A stretch of DNA of 59,480 nucleotides, from the NCBI GenBank assembly GCA_025361125.1, contig JANYBM010000056.1:1-59480 (forward strand). The letters are read 5' to 3'. The notes beneath the pieces were generated by a model. It saw only the letters and a program-made list of their open reading frames with translations. It was not told where the DNA came from and did no database searches. The position numbers and the translations under genes are program-made. Shown in pieces: positions 30,866 through 40,144 of the stretch. Origin of the DNA: Holophagaceae bacterium (GTDB lineage Bacteria > Acidobacteriota > Holophagae > Holophagales > Holophagaceae). Each line of letters opens with the position of its first letter. Position 1 is the stretch's first letter.

Positions 30866-30887
30866 AGCCACGGCACGTTCTTATTTT

Positions 30888-30902
30888 TTAATCTAAGATT
30901 AA
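30888..30902. other. AT-rich inverted repeat upstream of lpxC
   Basis: TTAATC-TAA-GATTAA lies in a strikingly AT-rich stretch (about 30880-30935) between ispD and lpxC. It could be a regulator site or promoter region. No good -35/-10 pair with normal spacing was found. Confidence 0.3.
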
Positions 30903-30950
30903 TTAAATCAATAATAAATAATTGGCATGATTCAAGCTTATAGTCTTTCC

Positions 30951-31913
30951 ATGTCGATTTCCAACCGCAATCCTCGCCCCCAGACCCTGGCGGTGCCCAT
31001 TAGCCTGAAGGGCTTTGGCCTTCATGGCAACCTGCCCTGCACGGTTCGGCTTGTACCGGTGGATCGCGCCATCGGTTGGGTTTTCCGTCACCTGCCATCC
31101 GGCACTGATATCCCTGTGAATGCAAAGTTCGCGGGAGATCTGACCCTGGCCACAACCCTGGTGAAGGACGGCATCCGCCTTCAAACCGTCGAGCACCTGT
31201 TGTCTGCCCTGGTGGGTCTGGAAGTGGAGCACTTGCTCATCGAGCTGGATGCCGAAGAATTGCCGATCCTGGATGGCAGTGCCGAGCCCTGGGTCGCGGC
31301 CATCCTCCAGGCTGGTGTCCAGACGCTTGCTGGCCGTCGCCGTTTTATCAAGATCCATCAACCTGTGGAAGTCCAATCAGGCGATGCCAATTATCCCAAC
31401 GATTCCTGCGAAAAATGGATCCGGGTCTCCCCTTCAACTGGCTTGGGGCTGCGAATTCGATACTCCATTGATTTCGACCATCCAGCCATCGGTCATCAAA
31501 GCCGCGAGATCAGTCTCACACCCGATAAATACCGGCGGGAAGTGGGCGCGGCCCGAACCTTCTGCCTGGAAGAAGAAATTGGCACCATGCGATCCCGCGG
31601 CTTGGCTCTGGGCGGTAGCCTGGAAAATGCCCTGGTTTTTGGAGCAGATGGCCCGCTGAACGAGGTGTTGCGCTTCGAGGATGAAGCCGTGCGCCATAAG
31701 ATGTTGGATTTGATCGGCGACTTGGCCCTGCTGGGTGCGCCCTTGGCGGGCCTCGTGGAAGCTCATGCCGCGGGTCACGCCATGCACGTAGCTTTGGCCA
31801 AGGCGATTCTCGCCCACCCCCAAGCCTGGACATGGGAAGAATTGCCCGACGTCCGCGACGCTCGAAAGCAGCCACAGCCGCGCTTCACGCCGGCGTTCGC
31901 AGGTACTGCTTAA
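30951..31913 (+). CDS. lpxC: UDP-3-O-acyl-N-acetylglucosamine deacetylase
   Basis: The zinc enzyme performs the committed step of lipid A synthesis. The 320-residue protein has KGFGLHGN at the start, LQTVEHLLSALVGL with a zinc His, ELDAEELPILDGSA, FCLEEEIGTMRSRGLALGG, RHKMLDLIGDLALLG with the further zinc His and Asp, and the catalytic His in AAGHAMHVALAKAI. This supports an LPS-bearing outer membrane. The ATG at 30951 starts next to the family N-terminus; an in-frame ATG at 30927 is equally usable and neither has a clear SD. hisD begins closely downstream. Confidence 0.95.
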   Translation: MSISNRNPRPQTLAVPISLKGFGLHGNLPCTVRLVPVDRAIGWVFRHLPSGTDIPVNAKFAGDLTLATTLVKDGIRLQTVEHLLSALVGLEVEHLLIELDAEELPILDGSAEPWVAAILQAGVQTLAGRRRFIKIHQPVEVQSGDANYPNDSCEKWIRVSPSTGLGLRIRYSIDFDHPAIGHQSREISLTPDKYRREVGAARTFCLEEEIGTMRSRGLALGGSLENALVFGADGPLNEVLRFEDEAVRHKMLDLIGDLALLGAPLAGLVEAHAAGHAMHVALAKAILAHPQAWTWEELPDVRDARKQPQPRFTPAFAGTA

Positions 31914-31984
31914 TTCTTCTTGCTGCAAACAGCATCCCCTGCGAGGATTCATTTTTCGCCCCCGAGGTACATAGGTGTTACTTC

Positions 31985-33304
31985 ATCTCCTTCATCCGAC
32001 TGATTGACCAGGCCGAGTTGCCGGGTGAAATTTCCGATCTGGTAGCGAGACTGAGCAGGGATGCAGAGGTTGAGCGGGATACTCAGGAACGGGTGGCAAA
32101 GATCCTGGCGGATGTGCATCAGGACGGCTTAGATGCCGTCCTCAGCTACACCGAAGCCCTTGACGGCCTGAAGCTGGATCCATCCAAGCTGCGGGTTCCC
32201 TCGGAAGCTTTAACCAAGGCCTTGGCGAACCTTCGAAGCGAGGACCCGGATCTCATCCAGGCCCTGGAGTCCCTTATCGCCAACGTGCGTCGCTTCGCTG
32301 AAGGGCAACGCCGCTGCATCTCCGATTTGATTCTGGACTTGCCCGGCGGAGGCACCGTAGGGGAACGTTGGGTACCGCTCACCCGGGTGGGGCTCTACGT
32401 GCCAGGTGGCCGTGCTTTCTATCCCTCCACCCTTGCCATGACTGTGATTCCTGCTCAGGTGGCGGGGGTTGGTCGCATCGTGGCGGTGACCCCCCCCAAG
32501 GCTGAGGGGCCGGAGCCGCTGGTGCTGGCTACCGCAGCACTACTCGGGTTGGACGAAATCTACACCCTGGGTGGGGCCCAGGCCGTGGCTTGGCTCGCCT
32601 TTGGGGAGCCCATGGTGGATCTCATCGCCGGACCTGGCAACCGCTTCGTCGCAGAAGCCAAGCGTCAACTGCAAGGCCGCTGCGGCATTGATTCCGTAGC
32701 CGGTCCCACGGAGTTGTTGATCATTGCCGATGGCGATGCGGATGCCGTAGTCCTCGCCGAAGATCTGCTGGCCCAAGCCGAGCATGATCCAGATGCCGCA
32801 GCGGTGCTGGTTTCCGATAACCAGCAGCTGCTCGACCAAGTGGCGGTGGAACTGAAAGTCCGCGTCGCGGCTTCACCCCGCCGCGCGATCCTGGAACAGA
32901 GTCTTTCCGCTCATGGCATGCTCATTTGCGCCGCACGGGAACAGGCCATCGCCTTCGCTGAGGAATGGGCGCCTGAACACTTGGAGCTGGTGGTCGGTGA
33001 TCCCGGAACATGGGCGCCTTTCTTGACCACGGCTGGCGCCCTGTTTCTTGGGCCGTACAGTGGCGAAGCCTTCGGCGATTACGGGGCGGGCCCCAACCAT
33101 GTGCTGCCCACCAGCCGCACCGCCCGATATTCGAGTCCGCTGGGAGTTGCGACCTTTTTGAAGCGCCAGAGCTTGATCCATCTCAGCCAGGCTGACGCGG
33201 CTGCCATGGCCCCATGGGTCCAGCGCCTGGCCCGAGCCGAGGGGCTTTACCATCACGCGAAAAGTGCGGAGCATCGAGGAGATCGAGGCAAGCAAAGGCA
33301 TTGA
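31985..33304 (+). CDS. hisD: Histidinol dehydrogenase
   Basis: The enzyme oxidises histidinol to histidine in two NAD-dependent steps, ending the pathway. Landmarks are VGLYVPGGRAFYPST, VIPAQVAGV, LGGAQAVAWLAFG, IAGPGNRFV, GIDSVAGPTELLI, LAQAEHDPDAAA, EWAPEHLEL, GPYSGEAFGDYGAGPNHVLP. The start is odd: homology begins at ISFIRLIDQAEL, but no ATG, GTG or TTG exists in frame between the 3' part of lpxC and TTG at 32018. Candidates are ATC 31985 (AGGTG seven bases ahead), CTG 32000, ATT 32003 and TTG 32018. I mark 31985 as the homology limit, giving 439 residues; TTG 32018 gives 428. It opens the his operon 71 bases after lpxC. Confidence 0.93.
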   Translation: MSFIRLIDQAELPGEISDLVARLSRDAEVERDTQERVAKILADVHQDGLDAVLSYTEALDGLKLDPSKLRVPSEALTKALANLRSEDPDLIQALESLIANVRRFAEGQRRCISDLILDLPGGGTVGERWVPLTRVGLYVPGGRAFYPSTLAMTVIPAQVAGVGRIVAVTPPKAEGPEPLVLATAALLGLDEIYTLGGAQAVAWLAFGEPMVDLIAGPGNRFVAEAKRQLQGRCGIDSVAGPTELLIIADGDADAVVLAEDLLAQAEHDPDAAAVLVSDNQQLLDQVAVELKVRVAASPRRAILEQSLSAHGMLICAAREQAIAFAEEWAPEHLELVVGDPGTWAPFLTTAGALFLGPYSGEAFGDYGAGPNHVLPTSRTARYSSPLGVATFLKRQSLIHLSQADAAAMAPWVQRLARAEGLYHHAKSAEHRGDRGKQRH

Positions 33305-33365: not shown

Positions 33366-35114
33366 ATGTCCTTTCTTCGACCCGATCTTGAAGCAACACC
33401 AGCCTACACACGGCCCGAAGAGCCCGTTGGGTTGGTGCGCCTGCATATGAACGAAGCCCCCGCCGACTGGCCCACTGCGGCCAAAGAAGCCCTGCTGGCG
33501 CGGCTTCGCGTGATGGCTTTTCAGCAATATCCCGAACGCCAAGCCGAGCTCACGGAACGCCTGCGGTTGCGCCTGGGCGCGCCAGAAGGGGGCCTGTTGC
33601 TGGGGCCGTCCAGCGGGAACTTGTTGGATCATGTAGCGCTTGCGGGCCTCCGAGTGGGTGACACCGTCGCGATACCATCGCCAGGCTTCAGCCTCTACCC
33701 CATGCTGGTGCGCCGCCACGGAGGCCAGGTTCGTTCCGTAGAAGTGGGTACGGGTTTTCCGCTGGAGCCATGGTTCCAAGCCTTGGACTGCAGGCAGCTC
33801 TGGATCACATTGCCGAACAACCCCACCGGTGCGTGGCTTGCACCGGATGACCTGGGACCCTTGCTACAGGCTGCCGCCGCATGCGCTGAACCACCCTTGG
33901 TCCTGCTGGACGAAGCCTACGCGGAATTTGCGCCGCTGACCCATCGGCTTGCGGTAGACCGCTATCCGAACCTACTGCTTTTGCGTACTTTCAGCAAAGC
34001 CCTGGCCTCGGCGAGCTGGCGCCTGGGATACCTGCTGGGGGATCCTGTGTTGATCCGCAGACTGGCCGCGCTGCAACTGCCATACACGATCCCTGCGGCA
34101 AGCCTGGAGGCCCTGGACGTGGCCTTGGATTTCGCGCCGGAATTTGAAGCACAGATCCGCGCCACGGCTGCTTTGAGAGATCGTTTGAAAGCATCACTAT
34201 CGAATCACGAGATTGCTAGCAGCGCCGCCAATTTCCTCTACGTCGCGCCGGATCCAACGCCAGCGTTGCAGGCCGCTGGATTATTGGCGCGCGCATTACC
34301 TGGAGCAAACGCGGCTCGGGTGGGAATTGGAACGGAAGCGATCGTCCAACGCACGGTCCTGGCCCTGGGTGCGACCCTCGCCAAAGCCACGCCACGCGGC
34401 CGCAGAGAATTGCTCGTGCTGGACGTGGATGGGGTTCTCATCGAGGCCGAGCGCAGCTTCATGGAAGCTGTGGGTCGTGCGTTAGCGGAGCTTGTACCCG
34501 GTCTTGCCTGGACCGATGCACACTTCCGCGCCTTCAAGCGCGTGGGGGGCTTTAACAACGATTTCCGCCTCTGCTCCGCCGCTTGGGTGCTGGCGCAACA
34601 TGGCGCCGTGGAGCGGCTTTGGACGGCTGACGGCAGTGGATTTCCTGAACTGGAGAGCGAGATCCAGCAGCATGAATCGGCAGCCAAAATCATCGTCCAA
34701 AAGCACTACGCCGAGACGTCCAAACTGGAGCGCCCCCTGATCGAACTAGCAGCGCTGCAATCGCTCGGGTGTGATTTGGCCATCCTCACAGGCCGTCCAC
34801 CCGAGGAATTGCTCATGGCCTTTGAGGTCCTGGGTTGGCGGCTTCCGGCTGTGGCCGACGCTGCCCCGCATCTTCGAAAACCTTCACCCTGTGGCCTTCT
34901 ACAACTCGCTGACGCGTTTCGTGCCCAGACCATCACCTTCGTAGGCGACACCCGCGATGATGCCGCCTGTCTCTCTGCGGCCCGCGCGCTCCGGCCGGAT
35001 CTCCTTTGGCGGTTCGCGGCGGTTGGAGCGGATCGTAACCTCATCAGTACCCGCAACGATCTATCCGCGCCAACACTGCTAGACCTTCTACCTTTGCTCC
35101 AGGAGCAACCATGA
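33366..35114 (+). CDS. hisC: Histidinol-phosphate aminotransferase fused to a HAD-family phosphatase domain
   Basis: The protein has 582 residues and two domains. Residues about 1-340 are HisC, a fold-type I PLP enzyme: LGPSSGNLLDHVAL, ITLPNNPTGAWL, LLDEAYAEF, TFSKALASASWRLGY with the PLP Lys near 211, and VGIGTEAIV with the substrate Arg region shifted. Residues about 345-582 are a HAD phosphatase: LLVLDVDGVL (motif I), ILTGRPPEE (motif II), a Lys in HLRKPSP and FVGDTRDDAA (motif IV). HisB next door has only the dehydratase, so this domain is the likely histidinol-phosphate phosphatase; that role is inference. Start: ATG 33366 at SFLRPDLEATPAY is preferred over ATG 33354 and 33321. hisB overlaps by four bases. 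Confidence 0.9.
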   Translation: MSFLRPDLEATPAYTRPEEPVGLVRLHMNEAPADWPTAAKEALLARLRVMAFQQYPERQAELTERLRLRLGAPEGGLLLGPSSGNLLDHVALAGLRVGDTVAIPSPGFSLYPMLVRRHGGQVRSVEVGTGFPLEPWFQALDCRQLWITLPNNPTGAWLAPDDLGPLLQAAAACAEPPLVLLDEAYAEFAPLTHRLAVDRYPNLLLLRTFSKALASASWRLGYLLGDPVLIRRLAALQLPYTIPAASLEALDVALDFAPEFEAQIRATAALRDRLKASLSNHEIASSAANFLYVAPDPTPALQAAGLLARALPGANAARVGIGTEAIVQRTVLALGATLAKATPRGRRELLVLDVDGVLIEAERSFMEAVGRALAELVPGLAWTDAHFRAFKRVGGFNNDFRLCSAAWVLAQHGAVERLWTADGSGFPELESEIQQHESAAKIIVQKHYAETSKLERPLIELAALQSLGCDLAILTGRPPEELLMAFEVLGWRLPAVADAAPHLRKPSPCGLLQLADAFRAQTITFVGDTRDDAACLSAARALRPDLLWRFAAVGADRNLISTRNDLSAPTLLDLLPLLQEQP

Positions 35115-35695
35115 GACAAAGCACACTGCACCGCGCCACGAACGAAACAGACATCACCTTGAGTCTTTGCCTGGAGGGCGGAGTCGCACAAATTTCCACG
35201 GGTCTCGGTTATTTCGACCATATGCTCATGCAGTTGGCCCGGCATGGCGGATTCGGCTTGGAGATTGAAGCCAGGGGTGACTTGCATGTGGACAGCCATC
35301 ATCTGGTTGAAGATGTGGGCTTGTGTCTCGGCGAAGCCCTGCGTGAGGCCCTGGGCGACCGCAAAGGCATCGCCAGGTGGGGCGAGGCGCACGTGCCCAT
35401 GGATGAAACCCTGGCACGCGTGGTGGTGGATCTCAGCGGTCGGCCCTACTGCGTTTTTCAGGCGGACCTCCCGAAAATCGTTTTCGGGAATGGCTTCCAG
35501 GTAGAGATGGTTCGGGAATTTTTTATCGCCTTCAGTGTCCGGGGCGCGTTCAATCTTCACGCGGCGGTACTCTACGGCGAGAACACCCATCACAAAGTGG
35601 AAGGGCTCTTCAAGGGTCTTGCCCGCGCTCTGAAACAGGCGGTTCACGTGCAAGGTGACGAACTGCCCAGCACCAAAGGAACCCTGACCACATGA
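35111..35695 (+). CDS. hisB: Imidazoleglycerol-phosphate dehydratase
   Basis: The manganese enzyme dehydrates imidazoleglycerol phosphate to imidazole acetol phosphate. The 194-residue protein is the monofunctional form. It has the two His-rich signatures: GYFDHMLMQLARHGG with DLHVDSHHLVEDVG, and FNLHAAVLYGENTHHKVEG, plus GLCLGEALREALGDRKGI and DLSGRPYCVF. There is no N-terminal phosphatase domain as in enterobacterial HisB, which leaves the phosphatase step to another protein. The ATG lies within the final bases of hisC (ATGA). It is followed by hisH with another 4-base overlap. Confidence 0.96.
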   Translation: MRQSTLHRATNETDITLSLCLEGGVAQISTGLGYFDHMLMQLARHGGFGLEIEARGDLHVDSHHLVEDVGLCLGEALREALGDRKGIARWGEAHVPMDETLARVVVDLSGRPYCVFQADLPKIVFGNGFQVEMVREFFIAFSVRGAFNLHAAVLYGENTHHKVEGLFKGLARALKQAVHVQGDELPSTKGTLTT

Positions 35696-36309
35696 TCACG
35701 CTCCTGGACTACGGCGCGGGCAATCTGGCGTCCCTGGAAGGGGCGCTGGACGCCATGGGCTATGTCCATAAACGAGCGGAAACTCCTGCCAACGCTGCGC
35801 CTGAAAGCCTTTGGCTGTTGCCGGGAGATGGCCACTACCACTCAGCTCAACACAGCTTATCGGAAAGCGGATGGTGGGGCGCTCTGCGCACCAGAATCCG
35901 CGAAGATAAGCCCCTGCTAGGCATCTGCGTGGGCCTCCAATTATTGGCCGAGGGCAGTGAGGAGGCCCCCGATGCGCCGGGCCTTGGGGTGTTTCCTGGG
36001 ATGGTTCGCCGCCTCGGGCCCGGTGTGAAAGTGCCGAACATGGGCTGGTCCATGACCACCCGGACTGATGCCCATCCAGCGTTCAAGGCAGACTCCACGG
36101 GTTGGCTGTACTTCGTCCACAGTTACGCCTTGGCGGTAAGCGACTCCACGGTTTTCTCCGCTGAACATGGCCGAACCTTTACGGCCGTGGCTGCGAAGGG
36201 CCGTGTGCTTGCCTTTCAGCCCCACCCGGAAAAATCCGGAGCCTTTGGCCGAGGTCTTCTGGATCATTCCCTGCGCTGGTTAGGCGAAACCCCGCAGGAG
36301 GCAACATGA
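35692..36309 (+). CDS. hisH: Imidazole glycerol phosphate synthase, glutaminase subunit
   Basis: HisH hydrolyses glutamine and channels ammonia to HisF. The 205-residue protein is a triad glutamine amidotransferase: nucleophile Cys in LLGICVGLQLL, NMGWS, YFVHSYA, and the His and Glu in FQPHPEKS. One feature is unusual: the segment normally read as LPGVGAF is LLPGDGHYHS here, replacing residues next to the oxyanion region. The catalytic triad is intact, so activity is expected. It overlaps hisB and hisA by four bases each. Confidence 0.95.
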   Translation: MITLLDYGAGNLASLEGALDAMGYVHKRAETPANAAPESLWLLPGDGHYHSAQHSLSESGWWGALRTRIREDKPLLGICVGLQLLAEGSEEAPDAPGLGVFPGMVRRLGPGVKVPNMGWSMTTRTDAHPAFKADSTGWLYFVHSYALAVSDSTVFSAEHGRTFTAVAAKGRVLAFQPHPEKSGAFGRGLLDHSLRWLGETPQEAT

Positions 36310-37058
36310 TTCAGCTCATCCCATCCCTCGATCTGCTGGGCGGTGGCGTGGTTCGTTTGCTGCACGGCGATTTTGGCAAAGTCACCCACTACGAGTGGAA
36401 GCCCGAAGCTTGGATCACGAAGCTGGTGGAAGCTGGTGCCACACGCATTCATCTGGTGGATCTTGATGGTGCCTTCGGCCTGGCGCTGCAACCGGATTTC
36501 CATGCGTTTCCCAAGCTGTTTCCAGCTGTTCGCTTCCAGTTGGGAGGCGGCCTGCGCAGTCGGGTGATCATCGAGCGGGCTCTGGGAAATGGCTTTGATG
36601 CGGTGGTGGGAACCTTGGCCGTCGAGAAACCGAGGGAACTTGTAGGCCTGCCCTGGGATCGCGTCGTTGTGGCATTAGATCTGCGGGGGGACCGGGTGGT
36701 CACCAAAGGTTGGCAGGCGACGACTTCAGGTGACTCCAAGGATGTGTTCGAAAGCCTGCTCACCCTCGGGTTTACCCGCGCGCTGGTGACTGATGTGAGC
36801 CGGGATGGTGCTATGACGGGACCGGGCCTCGAAGCCACTGAGTGGATCGCGAAGCAAGGGTTTTCAGTACAAGCCTCCGGCGGTTTGCGAAACCTGGATG
36901 ACCTGATCTCTTTGGCAACCATCCCCGGTGTCCAAGGCGCCATCAGCGGCAAGGCACTGCTGGAAGGCCGCATTCCCTTGGATGATCCCCGCACCCGCGC
37001 AGCTCTTTCTGGAGGTGCCGCCCCCAAGGGTGAAGCCGCGTCAGCGGGAGGTGCTTGA
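36306..37058 (+). CDS. hisA: Phosphoribosylformimino-5-aminoimidazole carboxamide ribotide isomerase
   Basis: HisA isomerises ProFAR to PRFAR on a (beta/alpha)8 barrel. The 250-residue protein begins LIPSLDLLGGGVVRLLHGDF with the catalytic Asp at residue 9, followed by IHLVDLDGAFG, QLGGGLRS (phosphate loop), VVVALDLRGDRVVTKGW with the second catalytic Asp, TDVSRDGAMTGPG and QASGGLRNLDDL. About 15 extra Ala/Gly-rich residues at the C-terminus (SGGAAPKGEAASAGGA) are an unusual tail with no obvious role. It overlaps hisH by four bases and hisF by one. Confidence 0.95.
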   Translation: MIQLIPSLDLLGGGVVRLLHGDFGKVTHYEWKPEAWITKLVEAGATRIHLVDLDGAFGLALQPDFHAFPKLFPAVRFQLGGGLRSRVIIERALGNGFDAVVGTLAVEKPRELVGLPWDRVVVALDLRGDRVVTKGWQATTSGDSKDVFESLLTLGFTRALVTDVSRDGAMTGPGLEATEWIAKQGFSVQASGGLRNLDDLISLATIPGVQGAISGKALLEGRIPLDDPRTRAALSGGAAPKGEAASAGGA

Positions 37059-37828
37059 TGCCCGCCAAGCGTGTCATTCCCTGCCTGGATGTGAAGGACG
37101 GCCGCGTTGTGAAGGGCGTCCAATTCCAGAATCTTCGTGCTCTCGGAAGCCCAGTGGAATTAGCCCGGCGCTACGATTTCGAGGGTGCCGACGAAGTAGT
37201 CTTTCTGGATATCAGCGCCAGCGATGAAGGCCGTTCGACGCAGGAATCCTGGGTGCGCCAGGTGGCCCGGGAGCTCACCATTCCCTTCGCGGTGGGCGGC
37301 GGCGTATCCAAGCCTGAAGACTTCACGCGTCTGCTGCGGAACGGTGCCGACAAGGTGGCTGTAAATACTGCCGCAGTCCAGAATCCAGGGCTTGTGCAGG
37401 CAGCCGCGGCCCTGGTGGGATCCCAATGCGTGGTGGCCGCCGTGGATGTTAAGCGCGATCAGGAATGTGGTTGGCGGGTGTTCATCAAAGGTGGCAAGGA
37501 AGCCACCAACCTCTCTGCCTTACCCTGGCTTCGCAGCCTTCAGGAACTCGGAGCAGGTGAGATCCTGCTCACCTCCATGGATCGCGATGGCACCCTTTCG
37601 GGGTTTGATCTGGAACTGCTTCGCGAGGCCGCCAAACTGGAGATTCCCGTCATTGCATCCGGTGGTGCTGGAAAGGAACTGCATTTCCTGGAGGCCTTGG
37701 AAGCAGGCGCCGACGCAGTGTTGGCGGCCACCCTTTTCCATGAAGGCACACTACCCATCATGCAGTTGAAAGAATACCTGAGCGATCGAGGCCAACTCAT
37801 GCGACTGGAGGGACCATGCAAGAACTAA
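37058..37828 (+). CDS. hisF: Imidazole glycerol phosphate synthase, cyclase subunit
   Basis: HisF uses ammonia from HisH to turn PRFAR into imidazoleglycerol phosphate and AICAR. The 256-residue barrel has RVIPCLDVKDGRVVKGVQF with the catalytic Asp, FLDISASDEGR, PFAVGGGVS, DKVAVNTAAV, VVAAVDVKRD with the second catalytic Asp, LLTSMDRDGTLSGFD and IASGGAGKELHF. The ATG at 37058 shares its A with the hisA TGA and has GGGAGG seven bases ahead. hisIE begins 13 bases before its TAA. Confidence 0.96.
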   Translation: MPAKRVIPCLDVKDGRVVKGVQFQNLRALGSPVELARRYDFEGADEVVFLDISASDEGRSTQESWVRQVARELTIPFAVGGGVSKPEDFTRLLRNGADKVAVNTAAVQNPGLVQAAAALVGSQCVVAAVDVKRDQECGWRVFIKGGKEATNLSALPWLRSLQELGAGEILLTSMDRDGTLSGFDLELLREAAKLEIPVIASGGAGKELHFLEALEAGADAVLAATLFHEGTLPIMQLKEYLSDRGQLMRLEGPCKN

Positions 37829-38490
37829 AAGTGAGAGATTTCAATCTGAACCTCCTGCATTTCGATGAGACAGGTCTCATTCCCGGCGTCGTGCAGGCGC
37901 CCTCAGGAGAGGTGCGCATGGTCGGTTATCTGAATCGCGAAGCCCTGGAAATCACGCTGAGTTCTGGCTTTGTGACGTTTTGGAGCCGTTCTCGCCAGAC
38001 CCTTTGGACCAAGGGGGAAGGCAGCGGCAATCGCTTGAAACTCGTGGAAGTGCGCGCCGATTGCGACAGCGATTGTCTACTCATCATCGCTCAGCCCGTG
38101 GGCCCAACCTGCCACCGTGGCACCGACAGCTGCTTCGATGTGGAAGGATCCCTCCCCACAACGGCCACCACCCTGCCCTGGCTGGACCAGCTCGAAACAC
38201 TTTTGAAAAATCGAAAAGCTACTGAATCGTTGACCGGGAGCTATACCCAGAAACTCTTCGCCCAAGGCACCGATCGCATCGCTAAAAAAGTTGTGGAAGA
38301 AGCGGGAGAAGTCATCCTGGCCGCCAAGAATCATGAGCGCCAAACGACGGCCAAGAACCGTGACGACCTGCTTGGCGAAGCGGCGGATTTGTTGTTCCAC
38401 CTGGAACTATTGCTCGTGGAGCGTGGTGTGAGCCTTCATGACGTAGTCAGGCTGTTGAAGGCTCGCCACAGCGATCGGGGCGGTTCCTGA
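37816..38490 (+). CDS. hisI: Bifunctional phosphoribosyl-AMP cyclohydrolase / phosphoribosyl-ATP pyrophosphatase
   Basis: A two-domain protein of 224 residues performing the second and third steps of histidine synthesis. The N-terminal cyclohydrolase (about 1-120) has MVGYLNREAL, FWSRSRQTLWTKGEGSGN, ADCDSDCLLI and GPTCHRGTDSCF, whose Cys and Asp residues bind zinc and magnesium. The C-terminal pyrophosphatase (about 125-215) has YTQKLFAQGTDRIAKKV, EEAGEV and LLGEAADLLFHLELLL, an all-alpha MazG-like fold. It starts inside hisF and its TGA shares one base with the hisZ ATG. Confidence 0.95.
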   Translation: MQELKVRDFNLNLLHFDETGLIPGVVQAPSGEVRMVGYLNREALEITLSSGFVTFWSRSRQTLWTKGEGSGNRLKLVEVRADCDSDCLLIIAQPVGPTCHRGTDSCFDVEGSLPTTATTLPWLDQLETLLKNRKATESLTGSYTQKLFAQGTDRIAKKVVEEAGEVILAAKNHERQTTAKNRDDLLGEAADLLFHLELLLVERGVSLHDVVRLLKARHSDRGGS

Positions 38491-39479
38491 TGGCCACGCA
38501 CACACCGCATTTCCCTGACCTGCTCTTTTCCGGTGCGGCCCGTCTCCGACGCTGGGAGGGCCGTCTCATGGGCCTGCTCGCGGACGCGGGCTATCAAGAA
38601 CTCCGCTCCTCACTGGTCATGCGTGAACCCCATGAGCAAGCCGCGCTGCGTTTTTTCGATGGCGACCACCTGCTGGCACTGCGCTGGGATTACACCACAG
38701 CTCTGGCGCGGATGCTTTCCAAACGGTTCGCCGAGCCGCCCCCGCGGGTGAGTTATGCCGGCGCGGTTTTTCGTCGGGCCAACCAACCCTGGGAACCCGT
38801 GGAGCGCTTCGAGGTGGGTTGTGAACGGATCCACACGGACGAAGTCAGCTGTGAAGAGGCAGATGTGGAACTGGCCCGGCTCCTCATGGCGGTGCCCGCC
38901 ACCCTGGGCCTTCGCGCGGCAATCCTCCAGATCGGGAGCGCTGCGCTTTTGCGTCGCCCCATGGAAGCCGAAGCCTTGCCCAAGGCCATGGCCGACGCCG
39001 TCACCAGGGCTCTGCTGCGGCGTGCGCCCCACCGTGTGCAAGAAGCCCTAGGCGATCACCCCGCTACATCGCGTCTCCTGGCCCACGTTGAGGCGTTGCT
39101 ATCGGAAGCCGAAAGCTCCGACTGTGCCAGCGGATTGCAGGTCCTGGACCGCAGCCCATACTCCCAGCTGTTGAAGGATGAGCGCGAGCACTTGAGAAAA
39201 ACCCTGGAAGCCCTGTCCCCCCTCATTCCCGAAGGACTTGAACTGCGGCTGGATCTGGCGGACGTCCAAGGCCTGGATTTCTACACGGGTCCCACGTTAC
39301 GGCTGTATGCGCCCGGCGCACAGCAGGAACTGGCCGCGGGTGGCCGCTACGATGGTCTTTATCCACAGCTCGGCAAACCCTGGTTCGCCGCTGGTTTTTG
39401 CGTGCGCCTCTCGCCCCTCCTGGATCTGGCGGAAACACGGCCAGATCTCTTCATTTCATTTGAAATGGAGACTCCATGA
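38490..39479 (+). CDS. hisZ: ATP phosphoribosyltransferase regulatory subunit
   Basis: HisZ is a catalytically inactive relative of histidyl-tRNA synthetase that activates short HisG and gives histidine feedback control. The 329-residue protein covers the class II catalytic core only: LRWDYTTALARML, VSYAGAVFRRANQPWEP, ERFEVGCERIH, LDFYTGPTLRLYAPG and AAGGRYDGLYPQLG. The anticodon-binding domain of true HisS is absent, which with the operon context rules out a synthetase. It overlaps hisI by one base and hisG by four. Confidence 0.92.
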   Translation: MATHTPHFPDLLFSGAARLRRWEGRLMGLLADAGYQELRSSLVMREPHEQAALRFFDGDHLLALRWDYTTALARMLSKRFAEPPPRVSYAGAVFRRANQPWEPVERFEVGCERIHTDEVSCEEADVELARLLMAVPATLGLRAAILQIGSAALLRRPMEAEALPKAMADAVTRALLRRAPHRVQEALGDHPATSRLLAHVEALLSEAESSDCASGLQVLDRSPYSQLLKDEREHLRKTLEALSPLIPEGLELRLDLADVQGLDFYTGPTLRLYAPGAQQELAAGGRYDGLYPQLGKPWFAAGFCVRLSPLLDLAETRPDLFISFEMETP

Positions 39480-40144
39480 ATCAGTCAGGTCGTTCCCTCG
39501 GCAAAGAACCGATCCTCATCGCGTTTCCCAAGGGACGCTTGGGCGACGAACTGCTTTCCCGACTCGAAGGCACCGCGTTGGCCCTGGATCAAAAGGCCCT
39601 GAGATCCAGAGTCCTGCGCATTCCCACCGCGACGCCCCAGGTCCAGGTGCTGCTCTTGAAAGGTACCGACCTGCCCCGCTACGTGGCTGCGGGCGTGGCC
39701 AGCTTGGGCATTGTGGGCTCAGATACGTTGGATGAAATGGACGTGGATCTCCTGGAACTTGCGGATCTCCAATTCGGTGCGTGTCGGCTTTCCCTTTGTG
39801 GTGTCGAAGGACTTTCCTTGGATGCGCTGAAACATAAGCCCCATCTGCGGCTCGCAACAAAATTCCTGAAAGCCACGGGCGCATGGCTGAAGCGTGAAGG
39901 TCTTACCGCTGAATTGGTGCCCCTGCAAAGCAGCGTGGAACTGGCGCCCATTCTCGGTTTGGCCGATGCCATCGTGGATCTCGTGCAGACCGGCGAAACC
40001 CTGAAGGCCCATGGCCTCGCAGAAATCAGCGTCCTTGGCACCACTTCCTCTCGACTGATAGCCGCCCGGGTTGCCTACCTGGCCGATCCCGAACGGCTGC
40101 GACCCTTGGCGGCGGAGATAATAAGGCTGTTGTGCAATAAGTAG
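39476..40144 (+). CDS. hisG: ATP phosphoribosyltransferase, short form
   Basis: HisG joins ATP and PRPP, the first and regulated step. The 222-residue protein lacks the C-terminal ACT-like regulatory domain of long HisG and so should need HisZ, encoded just upstream. Visible signatures: IAFPKGRLGDELL, LPRYVAAGVASLGIVGSDTL, LRLATKFLKATGAWL and the PRPP loop DAIVDLVQTGETLKAHGL. It is the last gene of the run, and 94 bases without a clear terminator separate it from a convergent gene. Confidence 0.95.
   Translation: MNQSGRSLGKEPILIAFPKGRLGDELLSRLEGTALALDQKALRSRVLRIPTATPQVQVLLLKGTDLPRYVAAGVASLGIVGSDTLDEMDVDLLELADLQFGACRLSLCGVEGLSLDALKHKPHLRLATKFLKATGAWLKREGLTAELVPLQSSVELAPILGLADAIVDLVQTGETLKAHGLAEISVLGTTSSRLIAARVAYLADPERLRPLAAEIIRLLCNK

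Follow-up and report, generated by a model that had tools for sequence, protein, structure and literature searches.

Which protein removes the phosphate from histidinol phosphate in a bacterium whose HisB is a dehydratase only? The his operon of a Holophagaceae bacterium raises this question. It lies in a stretch of 59,480 nucleotides (the window, always at its full length), and the gene between hisD and hisB is a single open reading frame of 582 residues (33366 to 35114, plus strand) that encodes a HisC-like aminotransferase followed by a C1-capped phosphatase of the HAD superfamily. HisC carries out step 7 of the histidine pathway and histidinol-phosphate phosphatase (HolPase) carries out step 8. 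A sequence-only reading of the locus had proposed that the HAD half fills the phosphatase step, and our analysis supports that proposal. In our view, the fusion is a bifunctional histidine enzyme in which the HAD half very probably acts as the HolPase (a probability of roughly 0.87). This role is the best supported because gene context in many phyla, the phylogenetic profile, the selective retention of the HAD, and the genetics of a Haloferax relative all point to it.

The operon runs in the order hisD, fusion, hisB, hisH, hisA, hisF, hisIE, hisZ, and hisG (Table 1). Profile searches confirmed that every other step of the pathway is encoded here, with hisD, hisB, hisH, hisF, hisIE, and hisG over the cut-offs of their own models and hisA and hisZ under theirs. 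They likewise confirmed that HisB lacks the HisB-N part. The open frame of the fusion reaches back to a GTG at 33264, and the start common to its relatives is the ATG at 33366. Just upstream of lpxC there is a very AT-rich stretch (30880 to 30925) in a region that is otherwise about 60% GC; it is perhaps the promoter of an lpxC-his run.

Table 1. Coordinates of the his operon in the window and of the parts of the fusion gene
Feature	Position	Strand	Evidence
hisD, open frame; true start probably near 31970	31832..33304	+	TIGR00069, 433.9 bits
HisC-like half (histidinol-phosphate aminotransferase), residues 1-345	33366..34400	+	TIGR01141; HisC PDB chains; motifs
Short linker between the halves, residues 340-345	34383..34400	+	pLDDT <50 in model
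HAD phosphatase half, proposed histidinol-phosphate phosphatase, C1-capped, stop codon included	34401..35114	+	PF00702; TIGR01548; model; 6iah
hisB, dehydratase only; ATG at 35111 overlaps the fusion stop (TGA, 35112-35114)	35111..35695	+	NF002111, 260.1 bits, over cut-off; without HisB-N part
hisH	35692..36309	+	TIGR01855, 159.5 bits
hisA	36306..37058	+	TIGR00007, 163.4 bits, below cut-off 228.95
hisF	37055..37828	+	TIGR00735, 328.7 bits
hisIE	37816..38490	+	NF002747, 229.9 bits
hisZ	38490..39479	+	TIGR00443, 146 bits, below cut-off 271.65
hisG	39476..40144	+	TIGR00070, 159.4 bits

Both halves of the fusion were recognized by profile. The first matched TIGR01141 with 168.2 bits over residues 5 to 334, under the equivalog cut-off of 276.55, and HisC proteins are its closest sequence matches in the PDB (3euc, 108 bits). 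The second matched PF00702 with 39.1 bits over residues 349 to 539, above the cut-off of 26.4. The claims that the two domains share one reading frame and that the PLP lysine region and HAD motifs I to IV are present thus held up, with every motif located in the translation. The aminotransferase half has the PLP lysine and the active-site residues of fold type I (NNPTG at residue 151, DEAY at 182, TFSKA with the PLP lysine at 208 to 212, and RLGY at 219), and the lysine and its adjoining residues are invariant in 13 aligned fusions. The HAD half carries motif I (DVDGV, 353), motif II (TGR, 475), motif III (KP, 505), and motif IV (GDTRDD, 527), with a GGFNNDF signature at position 34545 of the window. 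An 11-row HAD alignment has D7, D9, G10, S18, G48, N50, D52, E92, TGR, KP-P, and GD--DD invariant; over 34 rows, the motif I aspartates, the motif III lysine, and the Asp of the GG-N-D stretch are invariant. All alignment-invariant residues are found in the window's fusion.

The arrangement is stable in the family. Among the 18 same-family genomes of our phylum sample, 17 have the HAD (E of at most 1.4e-84), and 16 of these 17 carry the full fusion with its PLP lysine, so the fusion is not due to chance, a frame error, or an assembly accident. The sole genome without the HAD (G182) is 1.2 Mb and lacks both hisB and a good match to hisC. HisC and HAD are encoded side by side in the operon in four further family genomes (G215, G219, G221, and G238). 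Some family genomes have a second, better-scoring HisC homologue (about 280 bits) outside the his operon (L199, 5784-6908; L200, 5928-7046), which in G027 and G158 has a clpP-like gene on one side and a recQ-like gene on the other; the assignments of clpP, recQ, ilv, ispD, and rlpA were made by eye from translations.

We then asked to which class of HAD phosphatase the second half belongs. The best curated model is TIGR01548 (HAD-SF-IA-hyp1) at 57.7 bits, short of the cut-off of 140.2, which is reached in none of the 199 phylum-sample genomes and is reached by the Haloferax relatives. This model is a “hypothetical equivalog” of subfamily IA. The sequence-only reading had held that a HAD match with a firmly different substrate would count against it; TIGR01548 names no substrate. 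Membership in subfamily IA (C1 cap) agrees with the layout of the protein, in which motifs I to IV occur in order with an alpha-helical cap between I and II. In the model of the HAD half (mean pLDDT, 90.8), the cap helices lie between the strand at 5 to 9 and the strand at 127 to 130. Its fold matches are HAD-IA-type structures, and the nearest solved structure by both sequence profile and fold is 6iah, the Thermococcus thioreducens phosphatase Tt82 (109.9 and 121.6 bits; Z of 20.9 over 217 residues at 3.0 A). The comparison with known HolPase classes that had been suggested as a check placed the HAD half outside HisB-N, HisN, and PHP, all of which were rejected by the profile searches, with TIGR01548 the nearest. 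Against the HisB-N models, TIGR01656 gave 14.2 bits (cut-off, 84.15) and TIGR01261 (hisB_Nterm) gave no match at an E of at most 1.

The available parts of the literature on TIGR01548 yielded only Phytophthora effector work. A plasmid collection searched with the window's HAD gave no match. The same collection searched with the HAD of locus L079 gave 190 records, all below 60% identity; those of the 20 listed that bear an annotation are called phosphoglycolate phosphatase, pyrophosphatase PpaX, or simply HAD.

Relatives of the HAD were collected with a scan of one genome per species (84,980 species) using the HAD alignment. This gave at least 236 confirmed relatives, the best 80 of which were kept. 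Their his neighbors were found by tblastn with the window's his proteins, which undercounts distant lineages. Among these best 80 of at least 236 loci, 29 place the HAD between a hisC and a hisB of its own strand, and 31 place it beside one or both of these genes; at least two his genes occur within 6 kb in 32, and fewer than two in the other 48. Twelve of the 80 are HisC-HAD fusions, from Gastranaerophilales (3), an uncultured bacterium, Myxococcota (2), Aminicenantes, Pleionea, Lysobacterales, Marinicella, Cyanobacteria REEB67, and Roizmanbacteria. The order hisC-HAD-hisB is also found in two Nitrososphaerales loci, and in a Nitrosopumilus locus the HAD is just upstream of hisB. Within the sampled phylum, the HAD gene stands alone between hisC and hisB in genomes of families f5, f49, and f66, and a HisC-HAD fusion occupies that seat in genomes of f3, f6, and f27. 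Since both recur in other lineages, neither the operon seat nor the fusion is peculiar to the window. The fused state requires at least seven changes on a 91-row tree, a quick tree with long branches, built without the short L123 and extended by L076 and ten more loci. Elsewhere in the phylum, in a different family, a weak HAD match (L201, G175:C19; 31.1 bits) lies some 4 kb from hisB. No published HisC-HAD fusion was found in the available text of the literature searched, with subscription journals and protein databases outside its scope.

Across the phylum sample, the HAD is kept with the his pathway, with three exceptions. It is present in 27 of the 123 genomes with hisB and in 3 of the 76 genomes without it; the nominal Fisher p of 4e-4 overstates this association because the genomes are related and do not amount to 199 independent cases. 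Presence was counted at a TIGR01548 E of at most 2.4e-14, excluding weaker matches (171 of 199 genomes have a match of any strength), and G132 was counted as positive despite a long insert in its match and a seat outside any operon. Family f5 has the HAD in all four hisB-bearing genomes and in none of the five without hisB. PHP proteins over the hisJ_fam cut-off are found in 4 of 4 and 4 of 5 of these same genomes, respectively, and were rejected as the f5 HolPase on account of their presence in both groups.

The three exceptions are genomes without hisB. One (G006; L074, 7381-9093) has a HisC-HAD fusion with the PLP lysine beside ilv-like (branched-chain amino acid) genes. The other two (G178 and G186; L080, 8055-8834, and L081, 5541-6353) have stand-alone HADs with a variant LNLNNDWD stretch, and these HADs probably have another function. 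Sixty-six of the 123 hisB-bearing genomes carry neither the HAD, a PHP protein over its cut-off, nor a HisN of at least 220 bits, a threshold set below the curated cut-off of 275.15, which only 2 of the 199 genomes pass. A large HolPase gap therefore remains in the phylum sample.

Two genomes of one genus in the window's family (G097, loci L083 and L187; G222, loci L191 and L194) offer a natural separation of the two halves. In both, the his operon has been replaced by a distant one, located about 17 kb away from the old site in G097. The replacement runs hisG-hisC-hisB-hisH-hisF and on to hisD, with hisB at about 40% identity, and its hisC lies directly before hisB with no phosphatase gene between them. 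The old site follows lpxC, as does the his operon of the window; it has lost hisD but retains the fusion gene. Its HisC part is cut to about 190 residues and has lost the PLP lysine, and its HAD is complete; in G222, the old site also keeps hisH- and hisA/hisF-like pieces. When G097 and G222 are compared, the HAD halves share 75.7% identity (pN/pS, 0.46) and the HisC remnants 57.1% (pN/pS, 0.67). Most simply, these sequences suggest that the phosphatase was still needed after the aminotransferase had become dispensable.

Further support came from archaea, as one of the HAD relatives (L122) belongs to Haloferax prahovense. In all 15 genomes of this genus, a single gene passes the TIGR01548 cut-off, with 213 to 229 bits, and the next HAD scores at most 43 bits. 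The second gene downstream is npdG (TIGR01915, 253.6 bits), with one small frame between as judged by eye. In Haloferax volcanii, npdG is HVO_0433 (PMC8305020); counting back two genes in the order of the locus makes the TIGR01548 gene of Haloferax HVO_0431. It lies 10.7 to 12.7 kb from pheA on the same contig and strand in six of seven genomes; in the seventh, pheA is on another contig and the HAD is near the end of its own. For H. volcanii, the available part of PMC4300041 puts HVO_0434 within 385,714-390,107 and a pheA1 (HVO_0449) insertion at 399,114. The same source describes two identical insertion mutants of HVO_0431 as histidine auxotrophs (PMC4300041), and HVO_0431 has already been put forward as a possible candidate for the missing histidinol phosphatase (PMC8305020). 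In Table 5 of PMC4300041, the insertion sites given for HVO_0431 (1,198,248) and HVO_1312 (1,198,243) are five bases apart, yet the genes themselves are distant from each other, so one of the entries is likely misprinted or misassigned. The printed HVO_0431 site is not near HVO_0434.

A separate HolPase elsewhere in the genome would be an alternative. In the window's genome, which is 91.6% complete, none of the three known classes is clearly present. There is no PHP-type (hisJ_fam) match in it or in any of the 18 same-family genomes. We found one inositol-monophosphatase-like protein (IMPase; G000:C46:25393-26118) and one HAD-IIIA protein (G000:C94:34741-35181), which are SuhB-like and GmhB-like, respectively. 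This absence was not taken as proof of a vacancy, given the 66 hisB-bearing genomes above that have none of the three scored classes. The HAD-IIIA protein might moonlight as the HolPase while the fused HAD does something else: it exceeds the TIGR01656 cut-off with 139.6 bits, as do matches in 36 of 41 family genomes, and a bifunctional GmhB has been hypothesized for bacteria without HisNB (PMC8305728, in the part available). However, it scores as GmhB (161.5 and 134.6 bits, slightly under the cut-offs) rather than as hisB_Nterm (70.4 bits), and its gene lies outside the his operon. Moreover, a GmhB-kind match is kept in G182, which lacks hisB, a good hisC, and the fused-type HAD, so the GmhB-like protein does not follow the pathway. 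We consider this reading very unlikely.

Slightly less likely again is that the single IMPase is the HolPase as a diverged HisN. It does match the HisN model TIGR02067 at 168.1 bits (cut-off, 275.15), and such a protein is found in 187 of the 199 sample genomes, but this one is nearer to the SuhB type (198.3 bits). Presumed true HisN proteins of at least 220 bits occur only together with hisB (14 of 123 genomes versus 0 of 76), and a role for the IMPase would leave the fusion unexplained. We give the least credence to the idea that the aminotransferase-HAD fusion serves another pathway with a phosphorylated amine intermediate and sits in the his operon incidentally. HAD phosphatases are often broad in substrate, and the fusion in G006 occurs without hisB and beside ilv-like genes. 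Against this stand the recurrent seat of the HAD between hisC and hisB (the 29 of the best 80 loci), its survival in G097 and G222 when the his operon was replaced, and the low score (106.4 bits) of the best HisC match that the window's genome has besides the fusion. The auxotrophy of the Haloferax relative, too, is specific to histidine (PMC4300041).

If the HAD half is the HolPase, the N-terminal half would convert imidazole-acetol phosphate to histidinol phosphate by transamination, and the C-terminal half would remove the phosphate of that product. With the motif residues in their usual HAD roles, an aspartyl-phosphate would form on the first Asp of DVDGV and Mg2+ would be held by GDTRDD. 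Catalysis would take place under the alpha-helical C1 cap with its conserved GG-[FWY]-N-[ND]-D stretch. The fusion, its operon, the intact motifs, the recurrence in many lineages, and the survival of the HAD beside a decayed HisC are seen directly in the sequences; the substrate and a role of the cap in substrate choice are inferred, as are the details of the reaction, which follow what is general for HAD enzymes. The fusion would also fix the two steps at a 1:1 ratio. The direct passing of histidinol phosphate from one half to the other, which the sequence-only reading had envisaged, found no support: both domains fold in the full-length model, but its pTM of 0.57 leaves their relative placement uncertain, so whether the two active sites face each other cannot be read from it. 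Channelling is thus possible but unsupported.

The proposed enzyme can be set beside the known solutions to this step. HisB-N, a HAD-IIIA protein without the C1 cap, shares HAD chemistry (HAD-IIIA/DDDD) and, as HisNB, the fusion of a HolPase to another his enzyme; it is fused to HisB, whereas the window's HAD is fused to HisC and has no similarity to hisB_Nterm at the E limit given above. HisN (IMPase-like) and HisJ/HisK (PHP) act at the same step as we propose for the HAD and have unrelated folds. These known HolPases form three unrelated classes, one of them HAD (PMC5516325). The likeness to TIGR01548 and HVO_0431 is closest, as this is the nearest curated model, with the subfamily IA layout, the alpha-helical cap, and the GG-x-N-[ND]-D stretch, and its Haloferax member is tied to histidine by mutants; the window's HAD nevertheless falls well short of the model's cut-off, and the Haloferax gene is stand-alone and outside the his operon. 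Thermococcus onnurineus has a monofunctional HAD HolPase with measured activity and archaeal homologues (Lee et al. 2008, as described in the available part of PMC5516325); it is likewise of HAD type and separate from HisB, and the structure nearest to the window's HAD, 6iah, is also from Thermococcus. That enzyme is not fused, and we liken it by description and not by sequence. The SerB-like HolPases of Proteobacteria, found by histidine-rescued mutant fitness, fill the same gap but are phosphoserine-phosphatase-like and stand-alone (PMC5764234), again set apart here by description and not by sequence.

What this family means for histidine synthesis depends on how far the assignment extends. 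Among prototrophs, the step that GapMind most often rates as low-confidence is HisN, in 42 of 148 (PMC7311316, in the part available). We see an even chance that TIGR01548-type HADs are a widespread bacterial and archaeal HolPase family that fills a good share of this commonest gap in predicted amino acid synthesis and is repeatedly fused to HisC with direct hand-over. If the T. onnurineus enzyme belongs to the same family, the activity is already known in a distant member, and the novelty lies in how widely the family occurs, in its place in bacterial operons, and in its fusion to HisC; if it lies outside, the window's HAD type would be a further HolPase family. The his fusions listed in the available part of a review from 2007 involve hisA, B, D, E, F, H, I, and N (PMC1963479); a fusion that includes hisC would be an addition to them. 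With members in his operons from Nitrososphaerales to Gammaproteobacteria and a matching archaeal histidine auxotroph, the family has an annotation that is directly testable, and the HisC-HAD fusion would be a clean case for hand-over between consecutive enzymes.
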